A DNA stretch of 64,000 nt from Asparagopsis taxiformis (taxonomy: Eukaryota > Rhodophyta > Florideophyceae > Bonnemaisoniales > Bonnemaisoniaceae), in NCBI GenBank assembly GCA_030407315.1, contig JALQPE010002653.1, positions 1 to 64,000 of the forward strand, written 5' to 3'. The translations under genes and the position numbers were made by a program. Below the pieces are notes generated by a model. The model made no database searches, was not told the origin of the DNA, and was given only the letters and a program-made list of their open reading frames with translations. Positions 5,897 to 27,603 of the stretch are shown here, in pieces. Each line of letters begins with the position of its first letter. The first letter of the stretch is position 1.

Positions 5897-5973
5897 ATCT
5901 AAATCGCAGCACTCTATTGATAATGTACTACATGATAAACCTTCTAGTCAACGTCACATTTACTGCACTAATT

Positions 5974-7836: not shown

Positions 7837-7853
7837 AGTTGGCGCAGTGGGGG

Positions 7854-8258
7854 TCACAGCCTCCAGTGTCTCGGAACCCCCGGCTGGGACTCCGTCTGCA
7901 GCACCTCCGCATCTGCCAACCCGGGAGGAACTACCTTTGCCATAGCACTCTGCCGCAATTCCAACATGTTTTGAGCCACTATCATGTCATCATCATGATG
8001 TTCACTGTCCCTGCGAGCACGCTTGCCTCGGTCAAGCCCCATCTCTCTCCGCGCCGTTCCTCCTTCCTCACTTTCTCGCTGCGGATCCCCAGTTCTGCGC
8101 CGGTCCGTCTTGCGACTACCGGACCGCGGTTCAATGCTGCCGGTAGGCCCAGACCGCTTCTTCGCACGGGATTGTCGGGCACTCGATACAGCAGCTGCTG
8201 ACCGGGTTTTCTGGAGGCCCGGAGGCTTTGGAGCTTTCTTCGCAATACGCGGCGGCAT
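7854..8258 (-). CDS. Short basic ORF, possible 5' exon of the coiled-coil gene
   Basis: 134 residues from an ATG at 8258, rich in Arg/Lys/Ser/Pro with several nuclear-localisation-like clusters (RKTDRRR, GKRARR). It ends at a TGA that overlaps the upstream open part of the coiled-coil frame, one frame apart. Because the downstream frame is already open before this stop, the two could be one protein joined by a short intron of length 3n+2 or by a -1 shift. On its own it matches nothing I know. Confidence 0.4.
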   Translation of the reverse strand: MPPRIAKKAPKPPGLQKTRSAAAVSSARQSRAKKRSGPTGSIEPRSGSRKTDRRRTGDPQRESEEGGTARREMGLDRGKRARRDSEHHDDDMIVAQNMLELRQSAMAKVVPPGLADAEVLQTESQPGVPRHWRL

Positions 8259-8491
8259 AATGAAGCTTTCCCGGAAGCGATGGAACGATTGAGTTGCACG
8301 AGATACAAAAAAGATTGCTGTATAGTGTCGGTAACCACAACGGTCTGCGATGAACGTTCAGGTCAGGTCAAGTACCGGATAATACGCCAACAGCCCAGAT
8401 TGTATACGGTAGGCAGTCATCAACAGTATTTAATGAGGTACAATTACAGCTGTCGAGCTAGGCCGCGAGCACCCCTATGTCCGGAAGACGT

Positions 8492-8700
8492 CCTGATTTG
8501 AATTAAAATTTGGGCTATTCTCAAAAACATGCACATGTGAACATGTTTTTGAGATGGGGGTGTGCCGTACGGCACAATCGACCGCTGAAATCGATGTTTT
8601 TTGCAATATTTTTTTCTGCCCTGAATTGTAGAATTTCTGGGCCGGACAGCAATGCAACTGAGCTGGACATCCACCGGGCGTCCATTTCAACTTGGTCGTG
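8492..8700 (-). repeat. R repeat 1, left end of MTase-SET cassette
   Basis: A ~205-bp repeat found about 15 times in this window. Parts, from the outer end: cctgatttgaattaaaattt; an imperfect inverted repeat (ctcaaaaacatg ... catgtttttgag); the 14-bp palindrome GTGCCGTACGGCAC at 8562-8575; a gaaatt/aatttc pair; and a tail containing ggacatccaccgg. Here it points left. About 60 bp of further homology to the R at 13.7 kb extends outward to 8440 (acagctgt, gcgagcaccc). Confidence 0.9.
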
Positions 8701-8917
8701 TATTTTGCATCTGCACGCATAACAGCATCCAAGCAGTCAGGTTCACTGCTCGGACGAAGTGCACCTAGAGTGTGAACGATTGGTTTTTGACAGGCGAGTA
8801 CTGCTCAATAGGTTTCACCCTGGACTAATGGTGGCTGGACATGCTGCATTATATGATATACTTCAACTCTGGAACGTAGCTTTATTTGTAGTCGAAATGA
8901 AAACATCTTTCGTGACC

Positions 8918-11900
8918 CTAATTCCATGCTCTAAACGCTGTCCCATAATGAACGTAGAGCTCCTGCCCCGGACGGATATCGCGGATTGCACGTACTACAA
9001 TGATCTTCGGATTTTCTAGGTCCTTCGCCTTGAGCTTCTTCCCCGTCGAACCGCTGCTGTAGTTCTCGACAAACTCGACGTTGGCCATCCGCCTGGTGTC
9101 TTCCGCCGGAGTGTCCTCACCTCGCAAATACCGCGGGTCGTTGATGAACTGCGCCGAACAGAACGGAGCCGGAACAATCCAAATTGGATGCTCGATGTTT
9201 TCGTCGTCCTCCGCTGTTGCATACAGCTTGATGGCATACATCAAGAATGTTTCCTTCGTTATCGCCATGTGACCCTCTCCGTACGCGAACCTCATCGACT
9301 CCTTGCTCATATCAGAGTACACAACAGTTCCGTAGTATGCACATACTTCGTCGCCAACATTAAATGTCTGTTCAGCGAAGAGCCCTCTTCCTGCATTTGG
9401 ATGCTTAATCAGCGATGGTCGAACGCTCAATTTTTTCGCAACACAATCGTGTGCCCGCATCACGCGAGGGTTTTCAGTTTGCAACCAGCGGCGCAGGGAA
9501 GGTGGCCAATAATGTACCGGTTTTTCCATGTGCTCGTGCGACGCAATCGACTCTGGGCACAGCTGCCAGAGGTACTGCCGAATATATTTCGGGAACCTCT
9601 GGTACAGGGGAAGGCCAGGTGGGGGTTCGATGATCCTGCGTTCCCTCTGCGTACGCATCGTGACAGAGGGGGACGCCAAGAACTTCTCAGCACTCTGTTT
9701 CGCTTCTGTCGTGACCCTCATGTCAGTGTTGTTTGAAAGAATTACACGTGACATGACTGCACACAGCTTTGGAAGCGATCGTGCCACACACAATTTGTCC
9801 ATGTCACTGCCGACGAAAACACGGTGCTCAGGCAAGCTCATAGCTGCTTTTCCCGTTGCGAAAGTGCCAGAGAATGGATCGACAACAATATCACCAGGCT
9901 GTGAATGCTGGCTGATCAACTCCATCATGAGAGCGACGCTCTTCTGCTCTGCACGAACTCTGACCGTAGCACCGGTTGTGCTCCTTGTTCGCCACACCAT
10001 CTCATTCGAATCGATGGCGGGCATATTGATGGTGACGTTGCACCACGCCGGGTACGTGCCGTCCATGTATCCGTGGTTCCTATAGGCCACCATCTCGCTT
10101 CCAGTCTTGAACGGAACACCTCGCTTCCAGAAGTGGATAGCGACCTCTGCCATGTTCATGCGTTGGTACCTCTTCCGCCCCGGCATTTGATAGAGGTGCC
10201 CAGGTAGTCGGACAAACAACAGAGGTACCTCGTCAACGAAGAAAACTGAATTCCGAACGACGTCCTCCTCCTCCTCGTCCTCCTCCTCCTCCTCATCCGC
10301 ACTTTCTTCGCCACTGTGCTGCGATGCTTCGGAGTCCGAATTCATGGACGTAACCTCTTCTTCATCCGACCCGTCATCACTGGCAGCAGCATCGGTTGGG
10401 CCTTCTGACTGCGGTCCTTTGTACGTTTCCAAGTAATGGAACCATTCGTAGAACTGCAAAACGGAGCAGAACACGATGCCGTGGCCACCGGGGCGCAACA
10501 GCTCGTCAAACACTTCGATGCTAGCCTGCATATCTTCTGCAGTTAGCCTGTCGTACGAAGAGTTGGAATCGTTCCTCTTACGACGAACATTGTAGGGCGG
10601 ATCAGTCAGAATGAGCTGAACGTTGCCCGTGATGGGCACGTGTTCTCGGCTCTCGTCGGCACTGACCAAATCTTCGAAAGGGACGTCGTACACCCGGCAA
10701 TACTGACTCATTTTCGAAAGAAAGTCCTTTGCGAGAGCCTGCCCTTCACTTTCCTGCTCTTCTGTCGCATGGGGTGACGGTGACGGGGGAGACGGCCCTT
10801 GGGCAGTAAGACTGGTCCTCCCAGGTCCAAGTTGAAGCCTGGTTGTGTGTCTTGTCGACGGAACCAAACCTCTCCCTCCTGTGTTGCGACGAGTGGGAGT
10901 GTCATCAACCGGCTTGGGGACCTTTTCTGCGTCCGCGGCTTGTGGTGCCGGGCGGAGGACAGCCATAACGTCTTCGTCGAGGGTGTCAAAGTACGCTGGC
11001 AGCTTGTCCGGATTTCCGCTTGACAAGTATATTTCCAGCGCCCCCCAGCGGTCGGACTCCGGCCAGGTGTACAGGTCCGGGTTGACGATAAGAAACTGCA
11101 ACCGGTCGAAGAACTTCCTCACAAGGTCCCTAAATGCACTGTGCTGCGCACTGGTTCTTGTCTCTACTTTTCCACCATATCCATCAGGATGAGATAGGGG
11201 AGCTTTGTCGTGGTAGAGATCTAGCTTCTGCTCCATCGGTGCGAATAGACCTTCATCGAGCACGTCAAACCAATGCTCACTGCTGTCGAAAATGATGTAC
11301 GGCGCCATCAACTCTTCGAAGCTGGAAAACTTTGCGGCGAAGGCCACATCGGTCCAAGCATGGTATAAAACTTGAACCACGTAACAAGCTCGATTAGTGC
11401 TTTTCCGATGGGCTGGGACGCGTGCGGCTTCGTTCCCCTCTTCGGCCGCGTCGCCTATTCGGCGACGCGGCAGGTTCTTGTTGTGATTTCGGATGATAGA
11501 CAACGCTTGGAAATACATCAATACCTCGAACGTTTCCGGTGGAGCAAGAACGAAGGCGCTTGGTTCCCCGCGCTGCGGCGCCTGTAGTGGCGAAGGAAGC
11601 ATGTTACATCCAATAAGGAAGGTCTGCGGCACGATCCCAGAAAGGATGCAGTGCTCAACCCATTGCCCGATACGCTCATCCTGTCTTGAAAACTCGGCAA
11701 TCGGTAATGCCAGACGAACAATCTGCTTGGCTCGCTCAACGTTCATCTCTGCCATGACGATTTCGGCAACATCCGCCTCGACTCCAGCATTCTTCGAACG
11801 ACCGCTGAAGGCCATGCTGAGTCGACCTTGCAGCGCCAGAAATTGTTCTTCCGTGCCCTGCGCAACCCAAGCGCCAAGGTCCGCGTATGTGAAACCTCCC

Positions 11901-12121
11901 GGCTTGTCCGTCAAGTCTGCGAAACTTGAGTGGGCGAACAAATCCAGCAAGAGGCGGAGGAAGTCTTTGCCAGCGAGAGTAGTTTCGCGGGCGGCGCGAC
12001 CTACGTTTCGACGTGTACCCATGTCACTAGAATCCTCCCAAGGGCTAGCGGGTTCGCGCAGAATTGGCACGGTTGCGTCGTCAACGATCGGATTGCTGTT
12101 GCGCCTGCGCTTATTCGTCAT
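8918..12121 (-). CDS. DNA N6-adenine/N4-cytosine methyltransferase fused to a SET domain (copy A)
   Basis: 1067 residues, ATG at 12121. Residues ~130-420 are helical and share a block (YVVQVLYHAWTDVAF ... LMAPYIIFDSSEHW) with the other ParB/methyltransferase proteins here. The methyltransferase has DPPYN at 507-511, then an acidic insert near 606-625 (DEEEEEDEEEE), MNMAEVAIHF, and DPFSGTF at 748-754. DPPY before the FxGxG-like motif is the order of the bacterial beta group (N6_N4_Mtase), unlike eukaryotic MT-A70 enzymes. The SET domain spans ~905-1065: GRGLFA 911-916, YYGTV 929-933, FINDP 992-996, N1014, and RPGQELYVHYG near 1050-1060. The usual NHS of SET is ND here. Likely role: methylate DNA and a histone (or bind one) together. 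The gene lies alone between inverted R repeats. Confidence 0.85.
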   Translation of the reverse strand: MTNKRRRNSNPIVDDATVPILREPASPWEDSSDMGTRRNVGRAARETTLAGKDFLRLLLDLFAHSSFADLTDKPGGFTYADLGAWVAQGTEEQFLALQGRLSMAFSGRSKNAGVEADVAEIVMAEMNVERAKQIVRLALPIAEFSRQDERIGQWVEHCILSGIVPQTFLIGCNMLPSPLQAPQRGEPSAFVLAPPETFEVLMYFQALSIIRNHNKNLPRRRIGDAAEEGNEAARVPAHRKSTNRACYVVQVLYHAWTDVAFAAKFSSFEELMAPYIIFDSSEHWFDVLDEGLFAPMEQKLDLYHDKAPLSHPDGYGGKVETRTSAQHSAFRDLVRKFFDRLQFLIVNPDLYTWPESDRWGALEIYLSSGNPDKLPAYFDTLDEDVMAVLRPAPQAADAEKVPKPVDDTPTRRNTGGRGLVPSTRHTTRLQLGPGRTSLTAQGPSPPSPSPHATEEQESEGQALAKDFLSKMSQYCRVYDVPFEDLVSADESREHVPITGNVQLILTDPPYNVRRKRNDSNSSYDRLTAEDMQASIEVFDELLRPGGHGIVFCSVLQFYEWFHYLETYKGPQSEGPTDAAASDDGSDEEEVTSMNSDSEASQHSGEESADEEEEEDEEEEDVVRNSVFFVDEVPLLFVRLPGHLYQMPGRKRYQRMNMAEVAIHFWKRGVPFKTGSEMVAYRNHGYMDGTYPAWCNVTINMPAIDSNEMVWRTRSTTGATVRVRAEQKSVALMMELISQHSQPGDIVVDPFSGTFATGKAAMSLPEHRVFVGSDMDKLCVARSLPKLCAVMSRVILSNNTDMRVTTEAKQSAEKFLASPSVTMRTQRERRIIEPPPGLPLYQRFPKYIRQYLWQLCPESIASHEHMEKPVHYWPPSLRRWLQTENPRVMRAHDCVAKKLSVRPSLIKHPNAGRGLFAEQTFNVGDEVCAYYGTVVYSDMSKESMRFAYGEGHMAITKETFLMYAIKLYATAEDDENIEHPIWIVPAPFCSAQFINDPRYLRGEDTPAEDTRRMANVEFVENYSSGSTGKKLKAKDLENPKIIVVRAIRDIRPGQELYVHYGTAFRAWN

Positions 12122-12461
12122 AATGGAATGAGTGGAAATTCGGTACAGGATGGCGACCGCTCGGCGAGACAGTCAAATTTGACGACGTATCTCGTGACGT
12201 TTGCACTCTTTCGTGAGGAACACTGGTTGATATCGAACGGAACAGAGTATACGGGTACACAGCACTGGAAAGGTCTTGAAACCCGTAACCGGTGTAGGTA
12301 ATAAGTTGTGACGGATACGTGGTAGACAAAAATTTTAAAAAGATTGTGATTCCCTGTCTTTGAGGGTTGTACTGCACGGCCGCCATGGCGGCTGTGACTG
12401 CAGTCACATAGGTTGTCACAGGTGCATCACGCTTACCAGGTGAGCGACATCCGGACGGCCA

Positions 12462-12652
12462 CTGGACATGGGGATGTCCAGCTCAGATGCATTGCTGGCC
12501 AGACCAGAAATTCTACAATTTCGGGCAGCAAAAATATTGCAAAAAAACATCGATTTGGGCGGTCGATTGTGCCGTACGGCACACCCCCATCTCAAAAACA
12601 TGTTCACATGTGCATGTTTTTGAGAATAGCCCAAATTTTAATTCAAATCAGG
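12462..12652 (+). repeat. R repeat 2, right end of MTase-SET cassette
   Basis: Mirror-image partner of R repeat 1. It contains the palindrome GTGCCGTACGGCAC at 12569-12582 and ends in attcaaatcagg. With R1 it makes inverted ends about 4.16 kb apart around one gene. The bases just outside the two ends (gaagacgt left, atgcagat right) do not form an obvious target-site duplication. Confidence 0.9.
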
Positions 12653-13679
12653 ATGCAGATATTCGTCTTCTAGCATTGTCAGAACACATTCGTATAACCA
12701 CATTTGGAGAACCTGAGCCCAGAGCTATCGGTTTTGGCGGGAGCTAAGCCATATCTCATATAATCAGTAACTACTTCCCGCCAGCTGAGTGGTGGAACCC
12801 CTGCTATTTCTACCAACGAGACATACGGGGTGTCAACTCGGCAATCGTATATGATTTGGGTGCTAAATTTATTCAAGAGACGAATGGGCTTCGAAAAGGA
12901 GCCCAACAACGTCTTCTTGTGATCCATGGGTATAGGACTACTCTATTCTTCTCCAGGCTTCCACCATAGCCTCCTCCACCACCTCCGTTAATGGATCGAA
13001 TATCCGAACCGCACCTCAACATGCTTTTCTTCTCATCCATGGGTACTGACATCTGCGAGATGTGAGTCACATGTTCTCCAGGCTTGCACCATAGCCTCCT
13101 CCACCACCTCCGTTAATGGCAACATGTGAGATGTCAGTACCGGACAAGTTCTCCAGGCTTCCTCCGTAGCCACCTCCTCCACCTCCGTCTGTGGGAATCA
13201 ACACAACATCACCACTGCGTCTTACCTCACATCCACATCTCTCCGGGATGAAAACGGACGGACGACATAGGGTTTGTAGACGTTTAGAATCTTGTTAGAA
13301 AAAAGTAAACGAAAGAGAAGTTCTCTTTCATGGAATGATATCTCGTCCCTGTCGCAATATGTTCCATTTTCATTTTCTCGGGTTGCACACCCATCATGGG
13401 TGATCAAGGCCTGGATCGAACCCTCCGAGGGTCTTCGATGGATAGGACAGATAGTGGAAGGCTTTTAAGCCTGTGACCAAGCGGCTATTGATTGGTTGGA
13501 GGAAGGAAATTACAGAGGAAATATAGCTGAGTACGGTGCTCGCGATAGCTGTTAGGTTAAAGTCAAATATGTTTTTCGATTATTTTTCGTACGGAAATGG
13601 CTTCGAAAAGACGATGGAGAGCATCGTCATGAAGGAGAGGATTCTTTCTGCTTGTTAGAATCGGTTTAGAGGAGATAGC
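12653..13679. other. Non-coding spacer with a glycine-rich coding relic
   Basis: No complete gene. At about 12949-12996, 13072-13118 and 13150-13195 a ~46-bp word recurs (ttctccaggcttccaccata, then a run of cctcc triplets). Read leftward it would encode GGGGGGYGGSLEN-like peptides, each soon followed by a stop or a break. This may be a decayed glycine-rich protein gene or simple repeat growth. The remainder shows nothing I can name. Confidence 0.45.
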
Positions 13680-13847
13680 TAATGCATTACTGGCCAGCCC
13701 AGAACTTGTAGAATTTCGGGCAGGAAAAAAATTGCAAAATTTTATCGATTTAGGCGGTCGAAAGTGCCGTACGGCACACCCCCATCTCAAAAACATGTTC
13801 ACATGTGCATGTTTTTGAGAATAGCCCAAATTTTAACTCAAATCAGG
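13680..13847 (+). repeat. R repeat 3, upstream of D copy 1
   Basis: Somewhat diverged R unit with the intact palindrome at 13764-13777. Homology continues rightward to about 13930 (gcgagcacccc/acagctgt block) and onward into the D promoter region, identical in layout to the sequence at 58560-58757. It points toward the gene, unlike the outward-pointing ends of the MTase-SET cassette. Confidence 0.85.
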
Positions 13848-14044
13848 GTGTTCCCCGGATAAAGGGGTGCTCGCAGCCGCCCCAAAAGCCGCCTAGCTTG
13901 ACAGCTGTAATTTTAACACATTACACATCAAGGACACTGCCTGCTTCACGCCACCTCGTCAGGTTTCGAGAGCCCGACTCGGGCCCGTTCCGAACGGACA
14001 CTCACATCTCGATTGCCTGTCTTGCATTCCAGCGGTCACGATAG

Positions 14045-14090
14045 GTGTGTACCTAACAAAATTTCGGTTGTATTGTGTTATTATTTCCAG
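14045..14090 (+). other. Possible 46-nt intron in the D 5' leader
   Basis: The sequence runs AG then GTGTGT at 14045, carries a branch-like cctaac near 14052, then a T-rich tract and TTTCCAG ending at 14090. It lies 105 bp upstream of the chosen ATG. The same sequence is kept in the other two D copies. This is motif evidence only. Confidence 0.35.
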
Positions 14091-14194
14091 CGATTGGCGT
14101 TCACGACCATTCTTCAAGCAACGTGAAACCTACCATCCACATCACTCGAATACGTCAACGTCAACCATCTCTTTTACTTTCCAACTCAACAATC

Positions 14195-17100
14195 ATGGCG
14201 GATACGCATTTCAGCAGTTTGTTTTCAACGGTTTGCGGCGATCAAGTGAGCGCGTCAGCGGAGTCGCGCGGACTCAAGCGCGGCGTCGATGTCAATTTGT
14301 TTGCGGACGTGGACGGTGCGGCTGTGCATATTGGGACGGCTTCGGTGAGCACTGCTGGTGGCGATGTTGGCCTTCCGCGCACGCTGCACAACCACAAGCT
14401 GCCGGAAACCGACGAGGCCGACTATATCGTCGTGCGCAACATTGCGACTAAGGACAAGTTCAAGGACCTCCCGTTCCCGTACATGTTTGATGGCGCCGAG
14501 GGACCGCCGGAGACGATGGGTGGAGCATACGCCGCGGCGTTTTACCCTTGGGATACTCGGATGATGCGCCCCGCTGCGGAGGATGGCCCTAGCGACATTC
14601 GTACCCCTGCTGCAGCGTCAAACTTCAACGCAGCGACGAACCAGGCCAGCTCGGGACGGATGCCCAGTACCGGTCCGGCAGGCGAAATCACTGGTTCGGG
14701 GGGTACGAAGCATCCAGCACGCTCCGTCCCGGTTTCGGGAGGCACGAAGCGCCCTGCTCGCTCTGCAAGACCCTCCAGTGGAGGCACGAAGCACCCTGCT
14801 CGCTCCAACGTCACCGAAGCTACTACGCAGGACGTAACCGAAGTGGACGACGAACCGGAGGTGGCGGAAAGCATTCGTGAGCAGCAGGGGACGCAAATTA
14901 CGGTGCCCAAGTTTGTGACGTCGGATTACGTCGGAGAAGGAGCGACTGTGCTGGTGAGGCAGCTAGTGGAACCGGCCGTGACCCTTCGGGATGTGAAAGA
15001 AGACCACGTGGAGGACCTGCGCAACAATATGTTGGCTGTGGGGTATGTGAGCTCTTCGCGTATCACTGTGACGGTGCTGAGGTCGCAGAACACGCATCTG
15101 CCCGCCGACACGCGTCTGTTCCAGAATGGCAAATTCCATGCCAATGCGAACGTGACCGTGATCGACGGACTGCATCGTCTCAATGCTATGCATAGCATTG
15201 CCGATGACTTCACGCGCCTCACCCGTATGCACAGAACCAAGCTGCCACAGGACGCAAACCGCTTGCGCTGGGTTACTCAGCCTCTGGATGTGTACTACCT
15301 TCGCCGCAAGGACGACAGTGATCTTCAGCCTCATGAGATCATCCACAAGAGTGCAGAGTCGAACCATACGACTGGGACGCAACTGACGGAGCGCTCCCTG
15401 GTTCGAATCTTGTCGTCCATCCAGCAGTTCATCCGTACGATTGCTGTTGCAAATAACGTGGAAAACGCTGGCGACTTGCGTGAGTCTGATGTCATCCGAA
15501 CATTGTTCGAGGCGCAGTTCATGGGGATGATGAATTCAACGAACACGGCCCGGCGGTGGACGCGTTTGGCTATAGCAACGCTGAAGCATCCTGTTCTCGA
15601 CGAAGTGTTGCGTGAGCTGAACAATTCCGAGCGCCGCAACGAGATTGGGATAACGCACCTGGACCACAAGATAGTGCGCGAGTTGCTGGAAGAAAACTTT
15701 GTCTTCGTCTTGCGTGGTCTTTCGGAGTACTTGAACCCTGCTCATGGTGGACGTCCGGATGGACGCTTTGACGTGAACGACTTCTATACATACGTCCGTC
15801 GCGTGACTGCAATAGCAAATTCTCTGTACGCTGCGTATGGGCGCCCAAAGAGTATTATGCGCAAGTCATTTCTGAGCACAGAGATGGCAATTGGGTCGGT
15901 TAAGCAGCCGAAGGAGTTGCAATGGCATCTCACCAATGCCATTGCAATGTATAGAGGGGACGACCGGAGCAGTGAGGTTCGAATGCGACGGAGAACCACG
16001 CGTTTACAGGATTTGGAAACGAACTTGAAAGAGTTTTTCAATCCGACATTGAAGAAGAAGACTAAGGCTCGACGCAAACGCCGCCCTTCTGCTGCCAATG
16101 TGAGACTCACTCACAAGAAGCAGCGGAATGTCGAACATGAGCCTGCTTCGCATGGCATCCGCCGCCGTTCACAGCGACTTCGCTCGACGGGGAGCACACG
16201 CCTCGAGGAAGAAGAGCCGGTTGTGGTACAACAATCCGCCGGGGAAGAAGAGCAGGCCGTTGTTGATAAACCCACCGATCAACAACAAGCCACTGCTTCC
16301 GGTGATGAGGTTGACGAAGACTCCGCCCGTTCCCCCGATTCTGCCGTTGAGATTGTCCCCCAAGATAACCAACGTGCTGGTGCGACTCCCTCCAACCAAG
16401 AATCTGTCCATACCGCTTCGGACGAGGAAGACAAACAGGGTGCAGACGTGGGCCAAGTCGAAAGCAAGGGGGTCCGCGAAGTGACAATTACATTCACTGT
16501 TCCGGAAGGAGTGGAAGTCGATGAAGACGGTTACATCGTTCGTGACTCTCCTTCTGAACACGACCTCCTGTTCGACGACCGGATGCCATCTCTTCCCGAC
16601 GATTTCGAAGTCAAAGACCGAGCTGAAGGGCATCATCTGGCGCAGCGTCCCGCGGACGTCATCGCATCGGTGAGGGTTGGCTGTCTGCCCCCGATTGAGC
16701 TCAGGTTGTTATTGGAGAGTGTGGAAATCGATGAGGAGGGCAGAGAGGTGAGGTATTTGAAGCAAGTGGCGATGGACCCTGTGTTTGAGGGGCTGCATAT
16801 TCCGGAACAACATCGGGCTCGTCATCTTGTTTTCGAGATCGACACCATCTATCCGATGTTTTTCGCAGCGTGGAAGATGGCTGCCAAGGCGATGTGTGAG
16901 CCTACATCGACGTTTCTACCCTCGAGGCTGGACTTCGCCCAGGTTGCGCGAATGTCTACAAGCTGGAAGGATTCGTATGAGGCCGGCACTGGTATGGCGT
17001 ACTTCCACAATTGCCGAACGGAAATCAACGAGCGAGGGTATACGGTGATGCACAATTTCGCGGATGTAAGCTACCTCGATGCGTCGGACAAGTTCCCATT

Positions 17101-18151
17101 TGACTTGGGTCTCATGGAAGAAATTCCTAACCAGGAATTGTTTCGGTACTTTTTGGGAACGTGGGAGGGGGAGGAGGTGCACAAGGACCCTGGGAACCGG
17201 CAGCTGTGGAGTCCCATTGTCAATACTGGGGACGATGAAACAGATGAGAAGAACCGGAATGAGGGGAGGGCTCGCTTCACGTCTACGCGCCACTGCCTGG
17301 TTGACTATGCCGAGAATGATGAGACGCATATCGACCGGTTCAAGTTTGTGACGCGGCGAGCCATGCTGGATGTGTGGTTGGGAATCCTTGTCCGGCTGAT
17401 AGGGCTGGAGGAGTGCGGTTTACCGGGAGAAAAACTTGTCATGCCGGCATCTGGGGGACGGTTTTTGATAACGGGAAAGGGGTGTCCTCGGCAGGTCCCA
17501 CACAATGATTTCCCTGTTCCTCCTCGCGACCGCAAAGATCAACTTCCGGGTTACTTTGTTATTGCCAACGGAGATGACCCATTCCCTATCTGGGTGTGTC
17601 CAGGGTCCCACAAGTACGTCTTTTCCAAAGCGCTGGAATTAGATATGTACGCCAAGACGATGAAGCTGAAGAAGGTAATCGTTCCGCCACGTTCAGTCTT
17701 CATCGGTCACGGCTATGTACAACATGCCGGGGCAGGGCATGTCGACAGAGTTGTGTCACACACGACAACGAGGTATCACACGTATTTCAGGAATGCGTCG
17801 TATCCGATTCCCGACAATGTTTCGTTTGGTTTCATCAGGCGGTTGGGATTCGAAGAAGAAGTAATCGCCAATGCTCCGCGCCGGTCTGCCAGGCAAAGTC
17901 AACCGGCACCTGTCAATGTTCGCCACAAGACAGTTGTTCCCATCCCGGTCAAGAAAGATCGTAGGCCGAAGACAGGGCAACTCGGAATCATGCGGATGAA
18001 GACGACAGAAGCTCCCAAGAAGAGAACCCTCACACCGGGTCAAAAATTCATCTTGAGCTATTCAACTCCACAGTTGCCGATAACGCCTATTCTGCCGGGA
18101 GATCCTGAATATAGTGAGGACGAAGAGGAAGAACAATTTTCCGACGGCTAG
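14195..18151 (+). CDS. ParB-like plus 2OG-Fe(II) dioxygenase protein, D copy 1
   Basis: Long open frame; the ATG at 14195 (context aatcATGGC) gives 1318 residues, although the frame is open 40 codons further up. Domains: an unrecognised N-terminus; three SGGTK(H/R)PARS repeats near 167-208, probably DNA- or chromatin-binding; a ParB/sulfiredoxin-like domain with VIDGLHRLNAM (D324, H327, R328); a helical region; a basic stretch (KKKTKARRKRR, ~620); an acidic Ser/Glu linker (~680-775); and a C-terminal double-stranded beta-helix dioxygenase with H1103-N-D1105, H1177 (QHAGAG) and R1193 (TTTRYH), the HxD...H...R pattern of 2-oxoglutarate/Fe(II) oxygenases. It could oxidise a DNA base or a histone; the substrate is not visible. 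Parallel ParB-methyltransferase proteins nearby favour DNA. Acidic C-terminal tail. Confidence 0.75.
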   Translation: MADTHFSSLFSTVCGDQVSASAESRGLKRGVDVNLFADVDGAAVHIGTASVSTAGGDVGLPRTLHNHKLPETDEADYIVVRNIATKDKFKDLPFPYMFDGAEGPPETMGGAYAAAFYPWDTRMMRPAAEDGPSDIRTPAAASNFNAATNQASSGRMPSTGPAGEITGSGGTKHPARSVPVSGGTKRPARSARPSSGGTKHPARSNVTEATTQDVTEVDDEPEVAESIREQQGTQITVPKFVTSDYVGEGATVLVRQLVEPAVTLRDVKEDHVEDLRNNMLAVGYVSSSRITVTVLRSQNTHLPADTRLFQNGKFHANANVTVIDGLHRLNAMHSIADDFTRLTRMHRTKLPQDANRLRWVTQPLDVYYLRRKDDSDLQPHEIIHKSAESNHTTGTQLTERSLVRILSSIQQFIRTIAVANNVENAGDLRESDVIRTLFEAQFMGMMNSTNTARRWTRLAIATLKHPVLDEVLRELNNSERRNEIGITHLDHKIVRELLEENFVFVLRGLSEYLNPAHGGRPDGRFDVNDFYTYVRRVTAIANSLYAAYGRPKSIMRKSFLSTEMAIGSVKQPKELQWHLTNAIAMYRGDDRSSEVRMRRRTTRLQDLETNLKEFFNPTLKKKTKARRKRRPSAANVRLTHKKQRNVEHEPASHGIRRRSQRLRSTGSTRLEEEEPVVVQQSAGEEEQAVVDKPTDQQQATASGDEVDEDSARSPDSAVEIVPQDNQRAGATPSNQESVHTASDEEDKQGADVGQVESKGVREVTITFTVPEGVEVDEDGYIVRDSPSEHDLLFDDRMPSLPDDFEVKDRAEGHHLAQRPADVIASVRVGCLPPIELRLLLESVEIDEEGREVRYLKQVAMDPVFEGLHIPEQHRARHLVFEIDTIYPMFFAAWKMAAKAMCEPTSTFLPSRLDFAQVARMSTSWKDSYEAGTGMAYFHNCRTEINERGYTVMHNFADVSYLDASDKFPFDLGLMEEIPNQELFRYFLGTWEGEEVHKDPGNRQLWSPIVNTGDDETDEKNRNEGRARFTSTRHCLVDYAENDETHIDRFKFVTRRAMLDVWLGILVRLIGLEECGLPGEKLVMPASGGRFLITGKGCPRQVPHNDFPVPPRDRKDQLPGYFVIANGDDPFPIWVCPGSHKYVFSKALELDMYAKTMKLKKVIVPPRSVFIGHGYVQHAGAGHVDRVVSHTTTRYHTYFRNASYPIPDNVSFGFIRRLGFEEEVIANAPRRSARQSQPAPVNVRHKTVVPIPVKKDRRPKTGQLGIMRMKTTEAPKKRTLTPGQKFILSYSTPQLPITPILPGDPEYSEDEEEEQFSDG

Positions 18152-18423
18152 ATAGCTTAACAACTACTACTTTGGTAAACAATTATCGAGAATATAATCA
18201 TCTCCTTTATCACTTCCAATCTATGAACCTAGTATAATGTACTTCCGTTCCATGCTTTCAAACTAGATTGTCCATTCCCTCGTGGGTTGGAGCATGATTT
18301 CCAGGACGATTCCCTCACATCTCTAGACTCGATGGTCTATGGTAGAAATAGCAGAACAATTGGGTTTGTACGTGCTTCATCGCCTACTTGCTTCCGGTAA
18401 TGGGTGGACGTGCACGATACACG
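18152..18423. other. 3' flank of D copy 1
   Basis: Non-coding. It is repeated almost unchanged, in reverse orientation, beside the other two D copies (54185-54453 and 59461-59727), so it belongs to the duplicated unit and probably holds the polyadenylation signals. Confidence 0.6.
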
Positions 18424-18583
18424 ATCAACCTGAAATGGACGTCCGGTGGATGTCTAGCTCAGATGCATTGCTGGCCAGCCCAGAAACTCTACAATTCAGG
18501 GCAGAAAAAAATATTGCAAAAAACATCGATTTGGGCGGTCGATTGTGCCGTACGGCACACCCCCATCTCAAAAACATGCACAG
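18424..18583 (+). repeat. R repeat 4, downstream of D copy 1 (truncated)
   Basis: Same orientation as R repeat 3, so D copy 1 is flanked by direct repeats about 4.7 kb apart. The palindrome is intact at 18545-18558. The unit stops inside the inverted repeat (aaaaacatgcac) and runs into unrelated sequence, so its outer end is missing. Confidence 0.85.
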
Positions 18584-19520
18584 CATAAGCAATTTTTTGA
18601 AAAACCAGTAAATTTTATGGTCTGGACCACTAGAAATTAGTGGAATGGCAAACCATCAAAAAAATCCCAGAAATTACCGGCGCCGTGCCATAGATAAGTA
18701 GTGGAAATACCGTAAAGAATGTAATGGAATGGAACTGCGCCGTGGGAGTGGGTGTAAGCACCGTGACAGTTGGAATTTTCCAGTACTGTACGGAAAAATA
18801 ACATTGGAAAGGACAAAGACACGTCGCGTTGGTCATGACGGTGACCAGAGGTGGCATATTCCATTATTTTTGGAAATTCTATGCTGGAATGATGGAACGG
18901 CCGAACCATATGTATGACAGTACCATGATGGACTGGAACCATGATCTTTGATGGTCACTCCAGTCTGTGCAATGGATGGCAGCCGTAGCGGTGGAAGGAC
19001 GGTAGAGAGATGGACTGGTACTGACTGTTCCCATGTGATATCCACGTAGATGAAGTCACATTTTGGATGTCCATGAGGAATATGATATCATATGGAAGAG
19101 GAGAAATGCAAAGTGTATGGCTTTAACTATCCTATCTCGATATGGTCATTGTTTTATCATAGATAGGGTATGGTCGAAAGAATGGAACCATCTACATTGA
19201 TTTTTAGCACAGATAATACGGCTTGGTTACTATTTTAGTCGCTAAAGTCTGTAATCAAGCCACTCCCCTATACACGGGATTGACCCGAATAGTGATTTTC
19301 GCCCTGGCTTTAAGCGTTAGTAGTAACATAAACGCAGTAGTAGTGTAGTTGACAACTTTTGTGGCAGTGGGGAACATTGTAGTGATTTCGTATCATACGG
19401 TAAAAATGCAAAATTGGACGTTACGGATATGGGTGAGTAGTATTGAAGAAGTCAACGAAGACTTTTCCTAAACAGAATTGCAAATTGTGGGCTCTAGTAT
19501 CTTTATTTGGTGGAGGAACT
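18584..19520. other. AT-rich spacer before the four-gene block
   Basis: No gene or RNA seen. The stretch is rich in ggaat/attcc words and likely contains the left boundary and promoter of the Tudor-like gene. I could not find a terminal repeat pairing it with the right side of the block near 33.2 kb. Confidence 0.4.
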
Positions 19521-21215
19521 ATGACCAGGCGGGAATCATTGCGAATTAAGCGCCAAAGCGAAAAAGCAATAGCGTGTCGGGAGCGTGAGCGAGCTGCAGC
19601 TGTTGATGCACTTCCGTCTGTCGGCACCCAAATAGAGGTATGGTTCCAGGTGGGGGACGACTCAATGTGGTGGAAGGCTGTGGTAGTGGAAATGAAACTT
19701 CCCGAGCAGTATCCTATTTGCTCGGGTAAACCATCAGTGGGTGACCGCATCGATGTGGACAGAGGAGATGGCGTGTACACGCCCGGAGTGGTGGAGCAGC
19801 AGGGTCAGGATTTGGATACTGCAATTGTGAAGTTGGCGACGGAGGAAAAGGATATTGCAGTAACGGAAGTGTCAAAGTGGCGGTATTCGGATTCTGTGAA
19901 GCCAAGGTATGATGAAATAGTGGTTGCAGAAGGCAGATTGTTATACGATGCAATTCCTGAAAGGAATTACCCTTGCGTCTCCTATGAACACGTAAAATTT
20001 GTGCTGGGAAGTAAGTTAATGTCCGGGGGTCAGCCACCAACACCGTGGCGAAGGAGCAACGGAGAGGTTGTGGACTACGAAGAGGCCGGAGTGGAACATC
20101 ATGTCGAATCGGATGGTGAATCTGAAGCGATGTCCCCGCAAAAGAAGAAGCCAAAAGTGGAATCGGTACTTGATTCCAACACATACAGTGGCATGGAGAA
20201 GAGGCTGAGAACACTAGAAAGTATTATTCTTTCTGGAAGTGGTGGCGATCATCGGATGGTTTACGATGGGAAAGTTCCAATAGAACCTGCACTCACGTCC
20301 ACTGGACCGGTTCTATTGATGCTTTTGCGCCGCTCAGTCGAGAAAGCTGTAGAACAGGCAAACAGAGTTACGTTGTCAAACTCCGGGACAGATTTTCCGC
20401 ATAGTGAGGTGGATGGCGCATGTACCAGTGGGACAGTTGTGAGTGGTCCAGTGCATATTCCTGCTTCATTGAGCACAACCGTATTCCGGGAAATGTTGAA
20501 GGGAACAACAGAGTTGTATGCAGGATGTTATTACAAAGTTTACCCTGGGCTTCATGAGGCAGTGAGCGGAACTGGTGCTGAAGCTGTGAACATTACATGT
20601 TCCAGTTTTGCAGCAGTATCGGACTTGTTAGGATTACCTCACCCGTGGCGAATGGAGTCATTGCTGCACAGACGAAAGCCTGGAGCGGCAGTGGAAGAGG
20701 AAGAAGGGGGAGTGATTAGCGGAAATCGGCCTAGGAGGCCATTGTTCTTGCGCTTGCTTGGTGCATTGTTGTGCACAGAAACGACGAACGGAGATCCATC
20801 ATCTGTTGCAATTGGCAGTAGCTCGTTCTGCGTATCCGGAGCAAAATCGAACACGTGGTGCCTAGTGCGCAAGAATAGTTCTGCGGTCCAAGGTCAATAT
20901 GTGCATGGCATGCAGCTGAAAAAATGCCCATCGATTTGTGCCGTACATAGGAGGCCTGACGGGGATGCGAGTCGGGAAGGGTGGAAAGGTGACGGGAAGA
21001 AGAGTTTTCGTATAGAATGGCAACCGATAACGCATAAGAAAAGGGGACAGACAGGGGATGTGTTGTGGGGAACATTTCGAATTCATATACCCTACGTCGT
21101 ATTCCGAGGTTTTGGCGAACCATGGCGAATAGACAAGTTGATATCGGAAGATCTAGTCAAAGATGTGGTGGGGTATAACTTTTCAGACAAAAGGGCAGAG
21201 GAGTACATAAAATGA
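19521..21215 (+). CDS. Tudor/agenet-like protein (block B)
   Basis: 564 residues from the ATG at 19521 (the frame is open slightly upstream but lacks an earlier ATG). Residues ~34-60 (VGTQIEVWFQVGDDSMWWKAVVVEM) look like a Tudor/agenet beta-barrel start, a fold that often reads methylated histone tails. The C-terminal half is clearly related to the 462-residue protein at 40971: RLLGALLC ... VAIGSSSF and SFRIEWQPI ... GTFRIHIPY pair with RVLGTLAD ... VLVGSSLY and SFSLTWKPV ... LGTAYLNLP there. The middle is basic and acidic in turn (PQKKKPKVES), as in nuclear proteins. It converges with the coiled-coil gene 127 bp away, the same arrangement as in block C. Reader function is inferred; the family was not recognised. 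Confidence 0.6.
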   Translation: MTRRESLRIKRQSEKAIACRERERAAAVDALPSVGTQIEVWFQVGDDSMWWKAVVVEMKLPEQYPICSGKPSVGDRIDVDRGDGVYTPGVVEQQGQDLDTAIVKLATEEKDIAVTEVSKWRYSDSVKPRYDEIVVAEGRLLYDAIPERNYPCVSYEHVKFVLGSKLMSGGQPPTPWRRSNGEVVDYEEAGVEHHVESDGESEAMSPQKKKPKVESVLDSNTYSGMEKRLRTLESIILSGSGGDHRMVYDGKVPIEPALTSTGPVLLMLLRRSVEKAVEQANRVTLSNSGTDFPHSEVDGACTSGTVVSGPVHIPASLSTTVFREMLKGTTELYAGCYYKVYPGLHEAVSGTGAEAVNITCSSFAAVSDLLGLPHPWRMESLLHRRKPGAAVEEEEGGVISGNRPRRPLFLRLLGALLCTETTNGDPSSVAIGSSSFCVSGAKSNTWCLVRKNSSAVQGQYVHGMQLKKCPSICAVHRRPDGDASREGWKGDGKKSFRIEWQPITHKKRGQTGDVLWGTFRIHIPYVVFRGFGEPWRIDKLISEDLVKDVVGYNFSDKRAEEYIK

Positions 21216-21342
21216 TACCAGTAGTGCGATGAATAAAGCAAAAACGGTTCTGCCAGGCTAATAGAGACACATGTATACTGAGAACTAGAGGCAAACAATG
21301 TCAGGTTACGTAGGCAAAGATAGCAGAACAGTAAACAGAAAT

Positions 21343-23016
21343 CTACACATCAATTAAAGAAATACCAAGTTCATCATCTTCCTCTAGAGGTACACAATGA
21401 ACATTAGATGCTACCCTGGCTGTTGGGTTTTCGTAGGATTGTTCCATCTGTGTGGCATTAGAATCGAACCGCACCGACATGTATTCCTCTGCAGTGATGT
21501 TTCTCTTCTTCCTAATAATACCTAGAAGGCAATCACCCCCCATGAGGTAGTCACGGAGGTCGATGTGACCCCATGTAACACGCAGAGGGAAACCATCATT
21601 CCCGAAATTACCGGTAGGCGCCATTGTAAGGGCTGTGGTGAATAACCCGTGCAGGCAAATTGCAATGCGATAACATGCCTCAATTGAATGGGGTTCGTGA
21701 CAGAGCATCTCGAGTTGTGTGCATTGGCAGAAACTACACAACAATATCATAGCTAATGTAAGAAAAGAAAAAGAACAGACGGCCAATCTCTCAACCGGGG
21801 CCTTTGTACCTGCATTGCAGGAGCCGTCTACGGCGCCGCTAACCTGAACTTTGTAAGTAACCTGAATGTGAAGCTCAGGTCGACTCAAAATAAAATCCGA
21901 GAAGATATCATCATTTTTGGAATAGACAGCTTGAGACTCATCCCCTGTGCCGTAAGCTTTCGAAGTTATCGGAATTTTTTCAGATGGACACATATCCAAT
22001 GCAGAAATGTCATTGTCAGGCGAAAGAGAAACTTTAGCCTGCATATCTCGATGGATGAGGAAGAATGCATGTTTGACTAATTCCATTTTCATCTGCTTCC
22101 GGGAAGTATTGAAAAACTGTGTGAGCTGCCGCAGTGCCGAAGTAACGATCGGAATGGACTGTAAGTCCGAAGGAGAAAGATTAGATACACAAGAAGACGA
22201 AGATGAGGAAGAACCAGTACGGCGCTGTTCTCCTTTAGAACCCGAGAGTCGGCGACGTTTCGAATAATTGATTGGTAGAGTTGTGGACTGTGGCGCAGGT
22301 CGATCTGTTTCCGTTGGCATCGAAATATCCATGGCATGGAAAAGAGCCCGCTGCGAAATCTGCAACCAAGCAGGCTTATTGATTGGCACGATGGTTGCAT
22401 TGCGAAGTGCGTAGTCACGAGAAATGGTATTGCTGTTCAGGTCATCCTCCTCCCCAGGGTCAAGGGTACCAGAATTCCTCGTCGCCGAATCCTTCCATCG
22501 CACAATTCTGTCATTTGCCATAGAAATAAACGCAGTTCCGACAATAGCACGTTTCAGGAACACATGCTTTTTCCCTACAGCTGTTCCAATTAGGGATTTC
22601 TTGGACTGCCTGACCTCAGAATTAGAACTGGATGTCTGAGAGAAGGAAAGGGAAGCCAGAAGCAAAGTAGTGCAGGAATCTTCATTTGAACACGGTACAG
22701 ATGTTGCACAGAACGAGTTTGGGGTAACAGAGGTTTTGATGAACTCTGCAATGGTTCGAAACGCGACGAACCTGGATGTCACAAGTCTGTTGTTGAAAAG
22801 AGAGGACACCAGAGTGGTAACTTGTGCTGATTTTCTTGAACGCTCTTCCAGAACCACAGGTGGAACAACGTTTGTACCAGCTGCAGCAGAGGCCATATAC
22901 CGAATGCAGGCTAGTTCCATTTGAACAGATGAAAGAGAATCGCGGAGGTACTGTTCAAGGTAGGCAAATCGTTCCTCGAACTGCGCAAACCTGGTTAAGG
23001 ATAGTTCGTCTCTCAT
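21343..23016 (-). CDS. Coiled-coil/membrane-like protein, unknown (block B)
   Basis: 557 residues from the first ATG at 23016; the frame continues 24 codons further up from a non-ATG. The N-terminus (RFAQFEERFAYLEQYLRDSL) should form a coiled coil. The C-terminal half matches the 507-residue protein at 42965-44488: FFNTSRKQMKMELVKHAFF with FLNKSREQVRHRFLVELGF, and LHIQVTYKVQVSG with MVVIIQYEVEISG. A hydrophobic stretch follows in both (FSFLTLAMILLCSFCQCT here). A long Ser-rich low-complexity segment (TGSSSSSSSC) lies in the middle. Function unknown. Its repeated partnership with a Tudor-like gene and a ParB/methyltransferase gene suggests a structural or accessory role in the same process. 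Confidence 0.65.
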   Translation of the reverse strand: MRDELSLTRFAQFEERFAYLEQYLRDSLSSVQMELACIRYMASAAAGTNVVPPVVLEERSRKSAQVTTLVSSLFNNRLVTSRFVAFRTIAEFIKTSVTPNSFCATSVPCSNEDSCTTLLLASLSFSQTSSSNSEVRQSKKSLIGTAVGKKHVFLKRAIVGTAFISMANDRIVRWKDSATRNSGTLDPGEEDDLNSNTISRDYALRNATIVPINKPAWLQISQRALFHAMDISMPTETDRPAPQSTTLPINYSKRRRLSGSKGEQRRTGSSSSSSSCVSNLSPSDLQSIPIVTSALRQLTQFFNTSRKQMKMELVKHAFFLIHRDMQAKVSLSPDNDISALDMCPSEKIPITSKAYGTGDESQAVYSKNDDIFSDFILSRPELHIQVTYKVQVSGAVDGSCNAGTKAPVERLAVCSFSFLTLAMILLCSFCQCTQLEMLCHEPHSIEACYRIAICLHGLFTTALTMAPTGNFGNDGFPLRVTWGHIDLRDYLMGGDCLLGIIRKKRNITAEEYMSVRFDSNATQMEQSYENPTARVASNVHCVPLEEDDELGISLIDV

Positions 23017-23555
23017 GTCAGCCTGGAATAAGGAGATCTTCACAGATATGTTTCGTAACGTCAGAGCTACTGGGATGAGGTATTCCAAGATGAAGAGTTA
23101 TCCAGTAGAATGGTGGTAAAGGTAATTTAAGTTCGGAACTTGTCCGTTTATTGTAGAAGGGAAGGAAAGGGGAGAGATCGAAACGTTACAAATGCTACGT
23201 GTTGTAACCGACCTATTCAATTTGTAGAAGTAGGAAGAGATAAAGGAAGCTGTGGAACCGTTACGAATGCACCGTGCCGTAACGGTCGTAGATCTAAATA
23301 AATGGTGTGGTACAATAACTGTTTAAATTATGCATAATTTCGGACGGGAAAATTACTCGAGTAAAAAGAGATCTAGACCTGAACATTAGGTAGATCAGGT
23401 CCTCGTCCTGTTCACGGGAAAGAAATGCACCTAATCATCGCGGATGTTAGAGGGAATGAGGAGATAGAACATACTTTGCCTATTTTACTATTTGCGGGGT
23501 AATGGGAAGCAGGGAGAACATGATGTAGGTGTGAAAAACGCCAATGCGTTCCTGT
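23017..23555. other. Spacer between coiled-coil and MTase-SET genes
   Basis: Non-coding, AT-rich. At about 23348-23376 it contains attactcgagtaaaaa followed by gatctag, the same word as the arms of the hairpins at 27.6 and 28.4 kb, but here without a full opposite arm. Confidence 0.5.
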
Positions 23556-26500
23556 TTAAACTGAGAAGTAGTCATTACCATATTCTATGAACAGCTCGGA
23601 GCCAGCAGAGATCGGCACGTTGGCAGTAACACAGACAACTTGATAGTTTGAGACAGTATTCTCGTCGAGGAGCTCTTGAACGGGAGACGAGAAACTAACG
23701 TTAGCTGCGCGTGAAGGACGTTCAGTTCCCTCAGCTGGATCCACAAAGTTGGGGTCATTGATTTTCGAAGCGACACAGTACTCGAAAGGGACGACAAATA
23801 TGGGGCTTCCAGAAGTAGAAGGAAGCAAACAAGATATATTCGAATCCTTGATTTGAAGAGCGTAGCTTCTGAAGCGCTCCACGGTAAATGCTGTGGGACC
23901 TGTTCCAAACGTCTTGCCTTTTGATTTATAGAGATCTCTGTAAACCAATGAACCGAAATAAAATCCAACAATGTCACCAGGGTCGATCTGGCCTCTGGCA
24001 AAAAGACCGTCACCAGCCCCCGGAATAGTTGAGGTCGCGACGTACACGTTGTGTGCCATGGCATCAATGGAAAGCAGAAGATTGTTGTCAATGGTGGACA
24101 GCATGCCGAGAAGTGATTGAGGCCATTTGTGAACTGGAAGGTCGCCCAGTTGTTTGTATTGGTCTGGGATACCCCACATGCTAGTGAGGAAACTGACGAG
24201 GTGGGGCGGAAGTCGCGTAGCAACTGGCAAACCTGAGGTAGGCTTTGAAACCGTACCCTCCTCGGAAACCGGTAGATGTGATGAGGCGAGTTGTTGTAGC
24301 GAAGGATTGGAGAGCTGAGCAAAATTACCAATTGCTACTTGACGCAGAAATGCAGTATGAACTCTCGGAAGAGATAATTCAAAGCAATCTTTGTACTTTT
24401 CACAACCGACAAACCGCCTATACTGACCGTGGCGCATGTTAAGGCAAGCGACTGCAGTGGAGAATGTTCCGGCGAACAAGTCGACAACCAAATCTCCCTG
24501 GTGTGAAAATCGCCCAATTAGTTCCTGCAACAAACCAACGAGCTTCTGCTCCGGGCGCAGTACCTTGTTCTTCTGTTCCGTTTGGTCGAAATATTTGACA
24601 GTCTCTGAAGGCGATATCCTTGGAATGTTGTCGATAATATTTGTCCATGCTCGGAATCTGGTTGGGATGTAACCGGCATTTTTATAGTTCACCATCGCCC
24701 ATCCTTTTCTTCCCTTTCCGAGCTTTGTAGCATGTACAACCAGCTCAGACATATTCATTAAACTGGTCGTAAATCTATATGGCGGAGAAGTGAAATGCGT
24801 TGGGCTCCGAATACAGAAGATAGGCTGTGAATCAACTGAAAACATGGGAGTGTTCGTAGAAGTCTTGACCTTTCGGAGTTCGTAAACCCAGTTGTAGAAA
24901 AGGGCAGCAGATGTGAAGATGAGAACATGACCACCCTGTCGTGTTACCTTTGCGATAGTTGCCACTGTGTCCACGATTTCTTGTTGGCGGAGAATGTCAT
25001 ACGCTGAATTCTCTCTCCCAGCTGTTCGTCTCGAATTATACGGTGGATCTGTGAGAACCAATTGGGCACCCTCTATAAGCTCCGGTTTTGCAGGAATATC
25101 AATGCGTTCATAGGTCTCAAGAAGATCTCTGAAACTGCAATTGAGTGTGTGTAGGCAAGAAGCCTTCATGTTTTGTAGGTTTGCTGGAATTGAAACAGGG
25201 TCTCCGAGACGCATAGATTCGATGTCTAAGGACTCGGCAGTACTTGTGTCTGATGGCCTTCTATCAGCGCTCACCGGCTCAGAAGTGCGAGCTGACTTTG
25301 CAGGAACATCAGTTTCATTACTGTTGTCCAGTCGCTTCCGTTTGACACCTGTATCCGTGTTTTGTTCTATGGATGGTGACGCAGGAACGGGAGCGAAAGA
25401 TGTATCAGCTTCTCCAAAAAGCTCCTCGTTTGGTTCAGGAGTCGATTGTGGTAGTTCAGAGTTTCTGAAGGCCGTGAGCTGCCTCTCGACGTTTTGAAGG
25501 CCAGGAATAGAAGTGAACCTCCCAGAATCAGTTTCTATAGAATCTTCCTGTGCTTCGAATGCGCAAAGAAACGCGTTTTGTTTCGGAGAAGAAACGGTCT
25601 GGTCAAATAGTTTTCGATCCTTAGTGATATCTGTAATGTGTGCCCAGAAGGAGGAGGCGCAGAGGCGCATCTGAGCGTCTTGGAGGACGGAGCGATGAAC
25701 TGCTCGATGGGATATACTTTTGGCATGCTGCAACTTTCGCACGGCCCCTCTGCCATGCAATAACGTCTTTAGCTCTCGAAGAGGAGAGAACCCCCTTTCC
25801 TCTGAGTCTAGCACATGGTACTTGAACATGCGCTGATCATAAAGAAGATAAGGTTGGAGAAGTTCCTCGGCCGTTGAAACATCCAGTGCACGAGCCAGTG
25901 TATCCCATGCCTTCACGACCACATGAATAGCGTAGCCGAGGCGCTGAGCGGAAGCAGGAGATTCCTTTCTGATCAATACAGTTCGATTAGACGAGGACCT
26001 TGTTCTCGGCCTCACCGGGGTGGCTTTTAAATCTCTTTCCATTTGTAGCATAGCCATGAGAAATATAATCTTCTCGAAAGCGGAAGAAACTCTTGGAGTA
26101 GCCCAGTTTCCATGGTCCGTAGTTCGTAGCTGGGTATGCGCAACAAAGAATTGGCAAGCCAGAGTCTGCCGCACGAATGATTCACGACCAATTGAAGACC
26201 GAGACGCCGTGTGCACTGAGTGGAAATACTGTGCAACGGGAAGAGGTTCCGAACCTTGGCTGTGGAGGCTTTGGCTGGATGGTAACTTTGTGGTTGTTCT
26301 GTGCTCTTCTACAACGAACACTGGCGTGAAGAGAGACATTGATAAGTCTTGTAAGGAACAACTGGTCAGGAACATATCCCAAACCCTCGTGTCTACGTCG
26401 TTAGACCCCTCATCGCATTCCGAAGACGAGAAAGTGCGGAGGGACTGGACGATATTGAAGGTATGACGATGGTAGGCCTTCCCAAACCAATCTTCCATGA

Positions 26501-27483: not shown

Positions 27484-27521
27484 GCACGTCTCGAATTATA
27501 GCGCTATAATTCGAGACGTGC
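27484..27521. repeat. Perfect 38-bp palindrome
   Basis: Two 19-base arms, gcacgtctcgaattatagc and its complement, with no spacer. It abuts the next palindrome. The length equals that of the palindrome at 2224-2261, but the sequence is unrelated. Confidence 0.9.
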
Positions 27522-27560: not shown

Positions 27561-27603
27561 CAATGGGTGGGACAGCAGCGAACGAACGCGAACAGGCGAT
27601 TTC

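Follow-up and report, generated by a model that had tools for sequence, protein, structure and literature searches.

Algal transposons are already known to carry ParB-methylases, and Plavaka transposons to carry dioxygenases. The available sections of one recent account (Kojima 2025, PMC12730594) describe Plavaka elements with a TET/JBP dioxygenase in Agaricales, group Plavaka with EnSpm/CACTA-type elements and not with KDZ, give a target site duplication (TSD) of 2 bp for PlavakaA and, for PlavakaB, which bears TET, one of 2 or 3 bp, and propose that TET/JBP helps these fungal transposons to evade methylation-based silencing. A second (Dinatale 2025, PMC12477816), in the part consulted, describes a ParB-DNA methyltransferase as an accessory protein of Sola1-1_Ec32, a 21.5 kb DNA transposon of the alga Ectocarpus, and cites Petroll 2025 (the Bostrychia moritziana genome) for red-algal EnSpm elements of giant size that carry accessory genes. 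The consulted portion of a third (PMC10398659) reports that VANC of VANDAL binds the tandem repeats of its own element and induces loss of silent marks, and cites TnpA of Spm. The subject here is a gene at 14195..18151 of a 64,000-nucleotide stretch of DNA (positions 1 to 64,000 of contig JALQPE010002653.1, here C2525; the window), predicted to join a ParB-like part to a putative 2-oxoglutarate (2OG)/Fe(II) dioxygenase, and carried by Element 1, a DNA transposon of the Plavaka type that is highly amplified. The features on which the comparison with these systems depends are as follows.

1..38618, forward strand: Element 1, a Plavaka-type DNA transposon interrupted by Element 2 (21,987 bases without Element 2)
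2858..5896, forward strand: Plavaka transposase, 1012 amino acids (Pfam PF18759, E = 1.6e-24, 87.2 bits against a cut-off of 26.3)
8918..12121, reverse strand: DNA methylase (DPPY motif)-SET fusion, 1067 amino acids (N6_N4_Mtase 3e-15, SET 9.8e-7, both over the cut-off)
14195..18151, forward strand: the gene under study, ParB-like plus putative 2OG-Fe(II) dioxygenase, 1318 amino acids, open from its ATG
38586..38618, reverse strand: inverted repeat at the 3' terminus of Element 1 (33 bases, identical to the 5' end at all but 2)

Like the fungal TET/JBP-bearing Plavaka elements, as presented in the available sections of PMC12730594, Element 1 has a Plavaka transposase, a short TSD (2 bp here), a putative oxidising cargo and a proposed anti-silencing role. 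It differs from them in that its cargo gives no TET/JBP profile match and has PhyH-like motifs, with a ParB-like part ahead of these, a methylase-SET gene beside it and a host that is probably a red alga. Its termini are CGTCTGTG..CACAGACG, at which neither the TGT..ACA given for PlavakaA nor the CATCA..TGATG given for PlavakaB in that source is present. The link with KDZ transposons drawn in the original prediction is not upheld, the transposase being of the Plavaka kind. With Sola1-1_Ec32, as far as the part of PMC12477816 consulted describes it, the gene shares the joining of a ParB-like domain to a DNA-modifying enzyme (putative in the present case); the enzyme there is a methyltransferase, whereas here it is a putative dioxygenase and the methylase, with its SET domain, lies in a separate gene. 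Giant red-algal EnSpm elements, as described in the same part, resemble Element 1 in host group, large size and accessory genes. VANC and Spm TnpA resemble the role proposed here in being element-encoded and linked to methylation loss on their own family, VANC through non-coding tandem repeats, but PMC10398659, in the portion consulted, presents them as proteins that bind or activate and mentions no fused catalytic oxygenase; the proposed protein would be their functional counterpart. No published ParB-dioxygenase, nor any paired with a methylase-SET gene in one element, was found in the literature searched, which lay mostly outside subscription journals, and within those limits the earlier remark that no such ParB-dioxygenase was known stands; Petroll 2025 (Curr Biol) may describe one.

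The assembly searched comprised 141 Mb in 3,156 contigs, and evidence that the gene travels with Element 1 came from several copies. The first five bases of the 5' end are absent from the window because the contig starts there; this terminus is complete in copy C474, where it matches the inverted end. The 3' terminus is common to C254, C474 and C581 and is found twice in the window, and downstream the shared sequence stops at the same base in the three fetched copies and is followed by unrelated DNA. Plavaka matches lie 11.7 kb upstream of the ParB-dioxygenase-like gene in C254 and C474, the transposase as a whole giving 123 scored genome matches of 1208 candidates. The methylase-SET gene is the divergent neighbour of the gene under study, adjoins it in C254 also (as judged from its first 1012 residues), and the region between the two is 99.5–99.8% identical in C474 and C581. 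With one mismatch allowed, the 5' end CGTCTGTGTTTTCGGAAGTGGACGCGGACGTCC was located at 678 + 696 genome sites (1,374 in total) and the 3' end at 659 + 656, reversed-pattern controls giving 0 for both. Ten end pairs, each in facing orientation on a single contig and chosen by eye from the first 100 places per end, were separated by 11–16 kb in five cases and by 20–21 kb in the other five; identical 2-bp flanks were present in six, against about 0.6 expected by chance, the remaining pairs being those of C11, C12b, C88 and C164. The original prediction of an amplified gene of a mobile element is borne out.

The open reading frame (ORF) and the motifs previously quoted from it are real: VIDGLHRLNAM occupies residues 322–332, HND residues 1103–1105, QHAGAG residues 1176–1181 and TTTRYH residues 1190–1195 of the 1318-residue protein. 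Three near-identical copies had been reported in the window; three are present, but only two are intact, the third being broken because its sequence is split into four frames.

51183..64000, reverse strand: Element 3, a second Element 1 copy, reversed and running off the window, with two tandem ParB-dioxygenase-like genes
54454-58410, reverse strand: second window copy of the gene, intact (protein 98.9% identical to the product of 14195-18151)
59728-63680, reverse strand: third window copy, frameshifted and divided over four listed frames

The tandem duplication within Element 3 (54454-63680, one copy broken) has a period of about 5.27 kb, and may reflect unequal exchange between 388-bp repeats or an effect of assembly.

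Full-length copies elsewhere in the genome (35 scored of 4,370 first-look candidates) lacked an internal stop in all but one case, which has a TGA, and a 121-residue segment spanning the putative catalytic core gave at least 150 matches at 99–100% identity (the best 150 of 2,938 candidates). Comparison of 21 intact copies revealed 33 variable sites, of which 17 are synonymous and 16 non-synonymous; this is about 0.38 of the ratio expected under neutrality, with no significance attached; residues 880–1230 across the same copies contained five synonymous and two non-synonymous changes. Two features of this comparison weigh against reading it as support for an active enzyme: the compared copies are near-identical, and selection on catalytic residues therefore cannot be tested, and they are the best-scoring matches, which biases them to intact genes. 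Residue 1174, which lies close to H1177, a proposed ligand of iron, is Tyr in the window copy but His in 20 of the 21 copies compared. Searching with the CPGSHK pattern, with the glycine codon of the main family excluded, returned a single genome place, where the same gene is present in slightly diverged form; no divergent paralogue was detected by this pattern, which covers only paralogues that keep the motif. Outside the genome no relatives were found in viral contigs, bacterial and archaeal genomes or phages by scans that reach close relatives only.

The two parts of the protein were assessed separately, in each case with patterns picked after the sequence was seen and compared with 40,000 shuffles of the 1318-residue protein.

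14978..15190, forward strand: ParB-like segment, residues about 262–332 (VIDGLHRLNAM; motif)
17447..17809, forward strand: putative dioxygenase core, residues 1085–1205 (H1103, D1105, PGSH 1136–1139, H1177, R1193; motif)
38578..40239, reverse strand: ParB-like and helical parts of a ParB-DNA methylase-SET gene that the 3' end of Element 1 interrupts at 38618

The N-terminal half probably holds a ParB-like fold. An [IV]DGxHR motif is present (IDGLHR, residues 323–328), and the pattern [IV]DG.HR arose in 0.17% of the shuffles. The motif is made credible by a sibling family, represented in the window by the fragment at 38578..40239, which matched two PHROG models, 1033 ('ParB-like partition protein') at 1e-4 and 4272, which has no name, at 1.7e-6. 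Relatives of this fragment match its residues 1–545, and one reads as a 1169-residue chain composed of a ParB-like part, a helical part, an N6_N4 methylase (1.2e-13) and a SET domain (2.2e-5); ParB, DNA methylase and SET in one chain are the design of that family, and the joining of ParB to a putative oxygenase is a parallel one. Hand-chosen ParB-like segments of the gene and of the sibling family gave a Smith-Waterman score reached by only 4 of 1000 shuffles.

A number of results nevertheless weigh against this assignment. The 1318-residue protein gave no ParB profile match in Pfam (E up to 10) or in PHROGs and NCBIfam (E up to 1), the single profile match to the segment being DUF1583 at 0.099, and a ParB_N profile search of the genome returned no known place of the gene among the matches listed. 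When residues 1–640 were aligned with the sibling, the score was reached by 20 of 300 shuffles and the two DGxHR motifs were left unpaired; hhalign placed DGLHR opposite the sibling's DGAHR with a probability of 2%. Against a Pfam-positive bacterial ParB (L060) the score was reached by 31 of 300 shuffles, which is without significance. The sibling itself fared no better against L060 (56 of 300). Thus the ParB-like domain originally proposed is supported by its motif and by the sibling ParB-methylase-SET chain, but not by any profile match of the protein itself. The contig that holds L060, C1526, is probably bacterial (the 3.3 kb examined is 62% guanine plus cytosine and contains frames resembling ParA and ParB).

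For the C-terminus, identification as a 2OG oxygenase is on balance favoured by its motifs. H1103, D1105, H1177 and R1193 occur in the expected order, but the bare layout on which the original prediction relied (H.D.{30,120}H.{8,18}R) was present in 91% of the shuffles, is therefore no evidence alone, and was rejected as an argument for an oxygenase. The fuller ordered signature, H.D ... [PAG]GSH ... H.[GA] ... R, was by contrast rare (14 of 40,000 shuffles, 0.035%). PGSH is a hallmark of phytanoyl-CoA-dioxygenase-like (PhyH) enzymes, in which HxD, PGSH, HxG and R follow in that order, and such motifs are atypical of TET/JBP; the motif resembles those of PhyH-like enzymes at least as much as TET/JBP. 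In an hhalign alignment of the protein with L058, a PhyH protein of the alga itself, the HxD, PGSH and distal H were in register.

The points against an oxygenase are again considerable. No 2OG profile was matched by the 1318-residue protein in the same Pfam, PHROGs and NCBIfam scans, so that the profile comparison with TET/JBP and PhyH suggested at the outset went against the assignment: TET/JBP (PF12851) was without a match in hmmscan at E up to 10 with HMMER filters on, and PhyH (PF05721) was likewise unmatched. Searched against the genome, PF12851 gave 0 matches, a result made uninformative by controls that gave none either, and the PhyH profile gave seven, none at the listed places of the gene. 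In the alignment with L058, R1193 was not opposite the PhyH arginine; 27 of 400 shuffles equalled or bettered its score, and of 72 control pieces taken from other proteins of the window at least 6 scored higher. Searches of the PDB with the protein or its parts gave no matches or ones that look like chance, and AlphaFold, run on the single sequence without relatives, gave models of no confidence (predicted local distance difference test scores of 31.0 and 30.5 in two runs), which speak neither for nor against a double-stranded beta-helix fold. Support for the dioxygenase claim comes from its motifs, through the rarity of the fuller PhyH-like signature, and not from the bare layout or any profile. 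A PhyH-like gene spread over two frames (L059) lies on contig C1317, which is probably bacterial.

It is in the light of these negative results that the best surviving rival has to be considered, namely that HxD...H...R is fortuitous and that the protein is a second transposition protein, a factor that binds repeats in the manner of TnpA and has a ParB-like domain. A helper that binds repeats is usually required by CACTA-type elements, and the frequency of the bare layout in shuffles, the want of a profile match and the want of a significant pairwise score all fit such a factor; the rarity of the fuller signature and the registration of HxD, PGSH and distal H with L058 do not, and this alternative is regarded as possible but doubtful.

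The explanation tentatively preferred, with confidence a little short of even, is that the protein is a ParB-guided 2OG oxygenase, an accessory enzyme brought to the element's repeats to counter silencing. The ParB-like module in the N-terminal half would dock on DNA, the best supported of the steps envisaged; the C-terminal 150–200 residues would form the oxygenase, with H1103, D1105 and H1177 as ligands and R1193 binding 2OG, the step second in support. The ParB part would then lead the protein to the element's own repeats, where it would oxidise a methyl mark carried by DNA bases or, with lower likelihood, by histones, these two steps being jointly the least supported. Silencing would be prevented or undone in cis and also in trans, extending to derivatives that have the repeats but no genes, and the divergent methylase-SET neighbour would lay the element's own permissive marks. 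The substrate may be DNA or histone; DNMT3 is reported in two red algae in the part of PMC9998398 consulted, making methylcytosine a possible one. The view of the gene as coding for an epigenetic enzyme is in keeping with its neighbours on the element, the transposase and the DNA methylase-SET fusion. In the latter the DPPY motif precedes the S-adenosylmethionine (SAM) motif, as judged by eye, and DPPY before the SAM motif is the rule for beta-class DNA N6/N4 methylases.

The repeats that may serve as docking sites, together with the other non-coding array and the remaining gene of Element 1, are as follows.

119..598, no strand assigned: subterminal tandem array of Element 1, 11 copies of a 43-bp unit
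5974..7836, reverse strand: coiled-coil protein, 620 amino acids (weak coiled-coil matches, below curated cut-offs)
35208..36990, no strand assigned: non-coding array of Element 1, ~388-bp repeats with GGACGTCC / GGATGTCC
about 8447-8746, 12472-12652, 13677-13851 and 18419-18578: further copies or parts of the ~388-bp repeat

The palindrome GGACGTCC is abundant in the ~388-bp repeats. Sites of GGACGTCC, GGATGTCC or GGACATCC numbered 21 in Element 1 against 1.4 expected, with 20 of these outside the four genes, and 13 in 10 kb of a short copy, L051, against 0.5 expected; Element 2 contained one (0.8 expected) and the sequence between the elements three (0.7 expected). In its first 10 kb L051 keeps the terminus and the repeats and has none of the four genes, and this retention of repeats by a gene-less copy suggests a role in cis. 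The ~388-bp repeats are perhaps candidate docking sites.

An oxygenase of a different kind, acting on a histone or transposase residue and countering or complementing the neighbour's SET domain rather than its DNA methylase, is considered improbable. JmjC and other protein hydroxylases are 2OG oxygenases with protein substrates, a SET domain is present on the same element, and the PGSH-type motif and lack of a TET/JBP profile match would suit an enzyme of this kind; the ParB-like docking part and the sibling ParB-methylase chain point instead to DNA. Less probable still is that the enzyme follows the methylase and protects the element's own DNA with a hypermodified base (for example a hydroxylated methylated base) instead of erasing a host mark. 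The divergent arrangement of writer and putative oxidase in one element speaks for this, but the Element 1 ORFs scanned include no recognised glycosyltransferase or third enzyme of another kind.

Should the C-terminus prove to be an oxygenase, as the preferred explanation holds, a eukaryotic transposon would possess a demethylase or base oxidase guided by ParB, one that differs from the fungal TET/JBP captures and is paired with a methylase-SET gene. The element might then rewrite the chemical marks used by cells to silence it, making it possible to ask directly if a transposon both sets and removes marks on itself in red algae, where the biology of DNA marks is little known, and a possible source of a sequence-directed base-oxidising enzyme. 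The strongest form of this idea, in which a single transposon combines a writer (DNA methylase-SET) and a ParB-guided eraser (2OG dioxygenase), both able to act on its own repeat arrays, as a self-contained, sequence-addressed epigenetic on/off kit with ends at more than 1,000 sites in one alga, is considered rather unlikely.

The host is probably a red alga and not a fungus. Matches to the phycobilisome family numbered 13 in the genome, 11 of them on the 224-kb contig C469, which also has an organelle-type ribosomal protein L3 gene and carries two equal-scoring matches 177 kb apart, suggesting that the assembly of a plastid genome ran on beyond its starting point. Among PDB entries the cytosolic ribosomal protein L3 came closest to those of apparent plant ribosomes, with fission yeast ranking fourth. 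A fungal KDZ/TET origin was rejected on the grounds of the Plavaka transposase, the phycobiliprotein genes and the organelle-type L3 on C469.

Further features of the window belong to the nested Element 2 and its surroundings.

18579..35207, forward strand: Element 2, a nested CACTA-like transposon (termini CACAGCATAAGC / GCTTATCCTGTG, TSD TG)
23556-27053, reverse strand: DNA methylase-SET gene of Element 2 (28% identical to the Element 1 methylase-SET over 875 residues)

By eye, no clear ParB motif was seen in either of the two window methylase-SET proteins. Element 2 holds other large ORFs besides its methylase-SET gene, those at 28795-32816 giving no transposase profile match, and two copies of a 324-bp tandem unit at 27706-28358. 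The region 38578-44488 is a remnant of another element family and includes the cut ParB-methylase-SET gene; its ORFs at 40971-42359 and 42965-44488 are weakly similar to Element 2 ORFs 19521-21215 and 21343-23016. The N-termini at 19521-19940 and 40971-41300 resemble by eye a small, Tudor-like beta-barrel reader domain and have no Pfam match. At 49551-51029 there is an integrase with a chromodomain, in the style of Gypsy-type retrotransposons.

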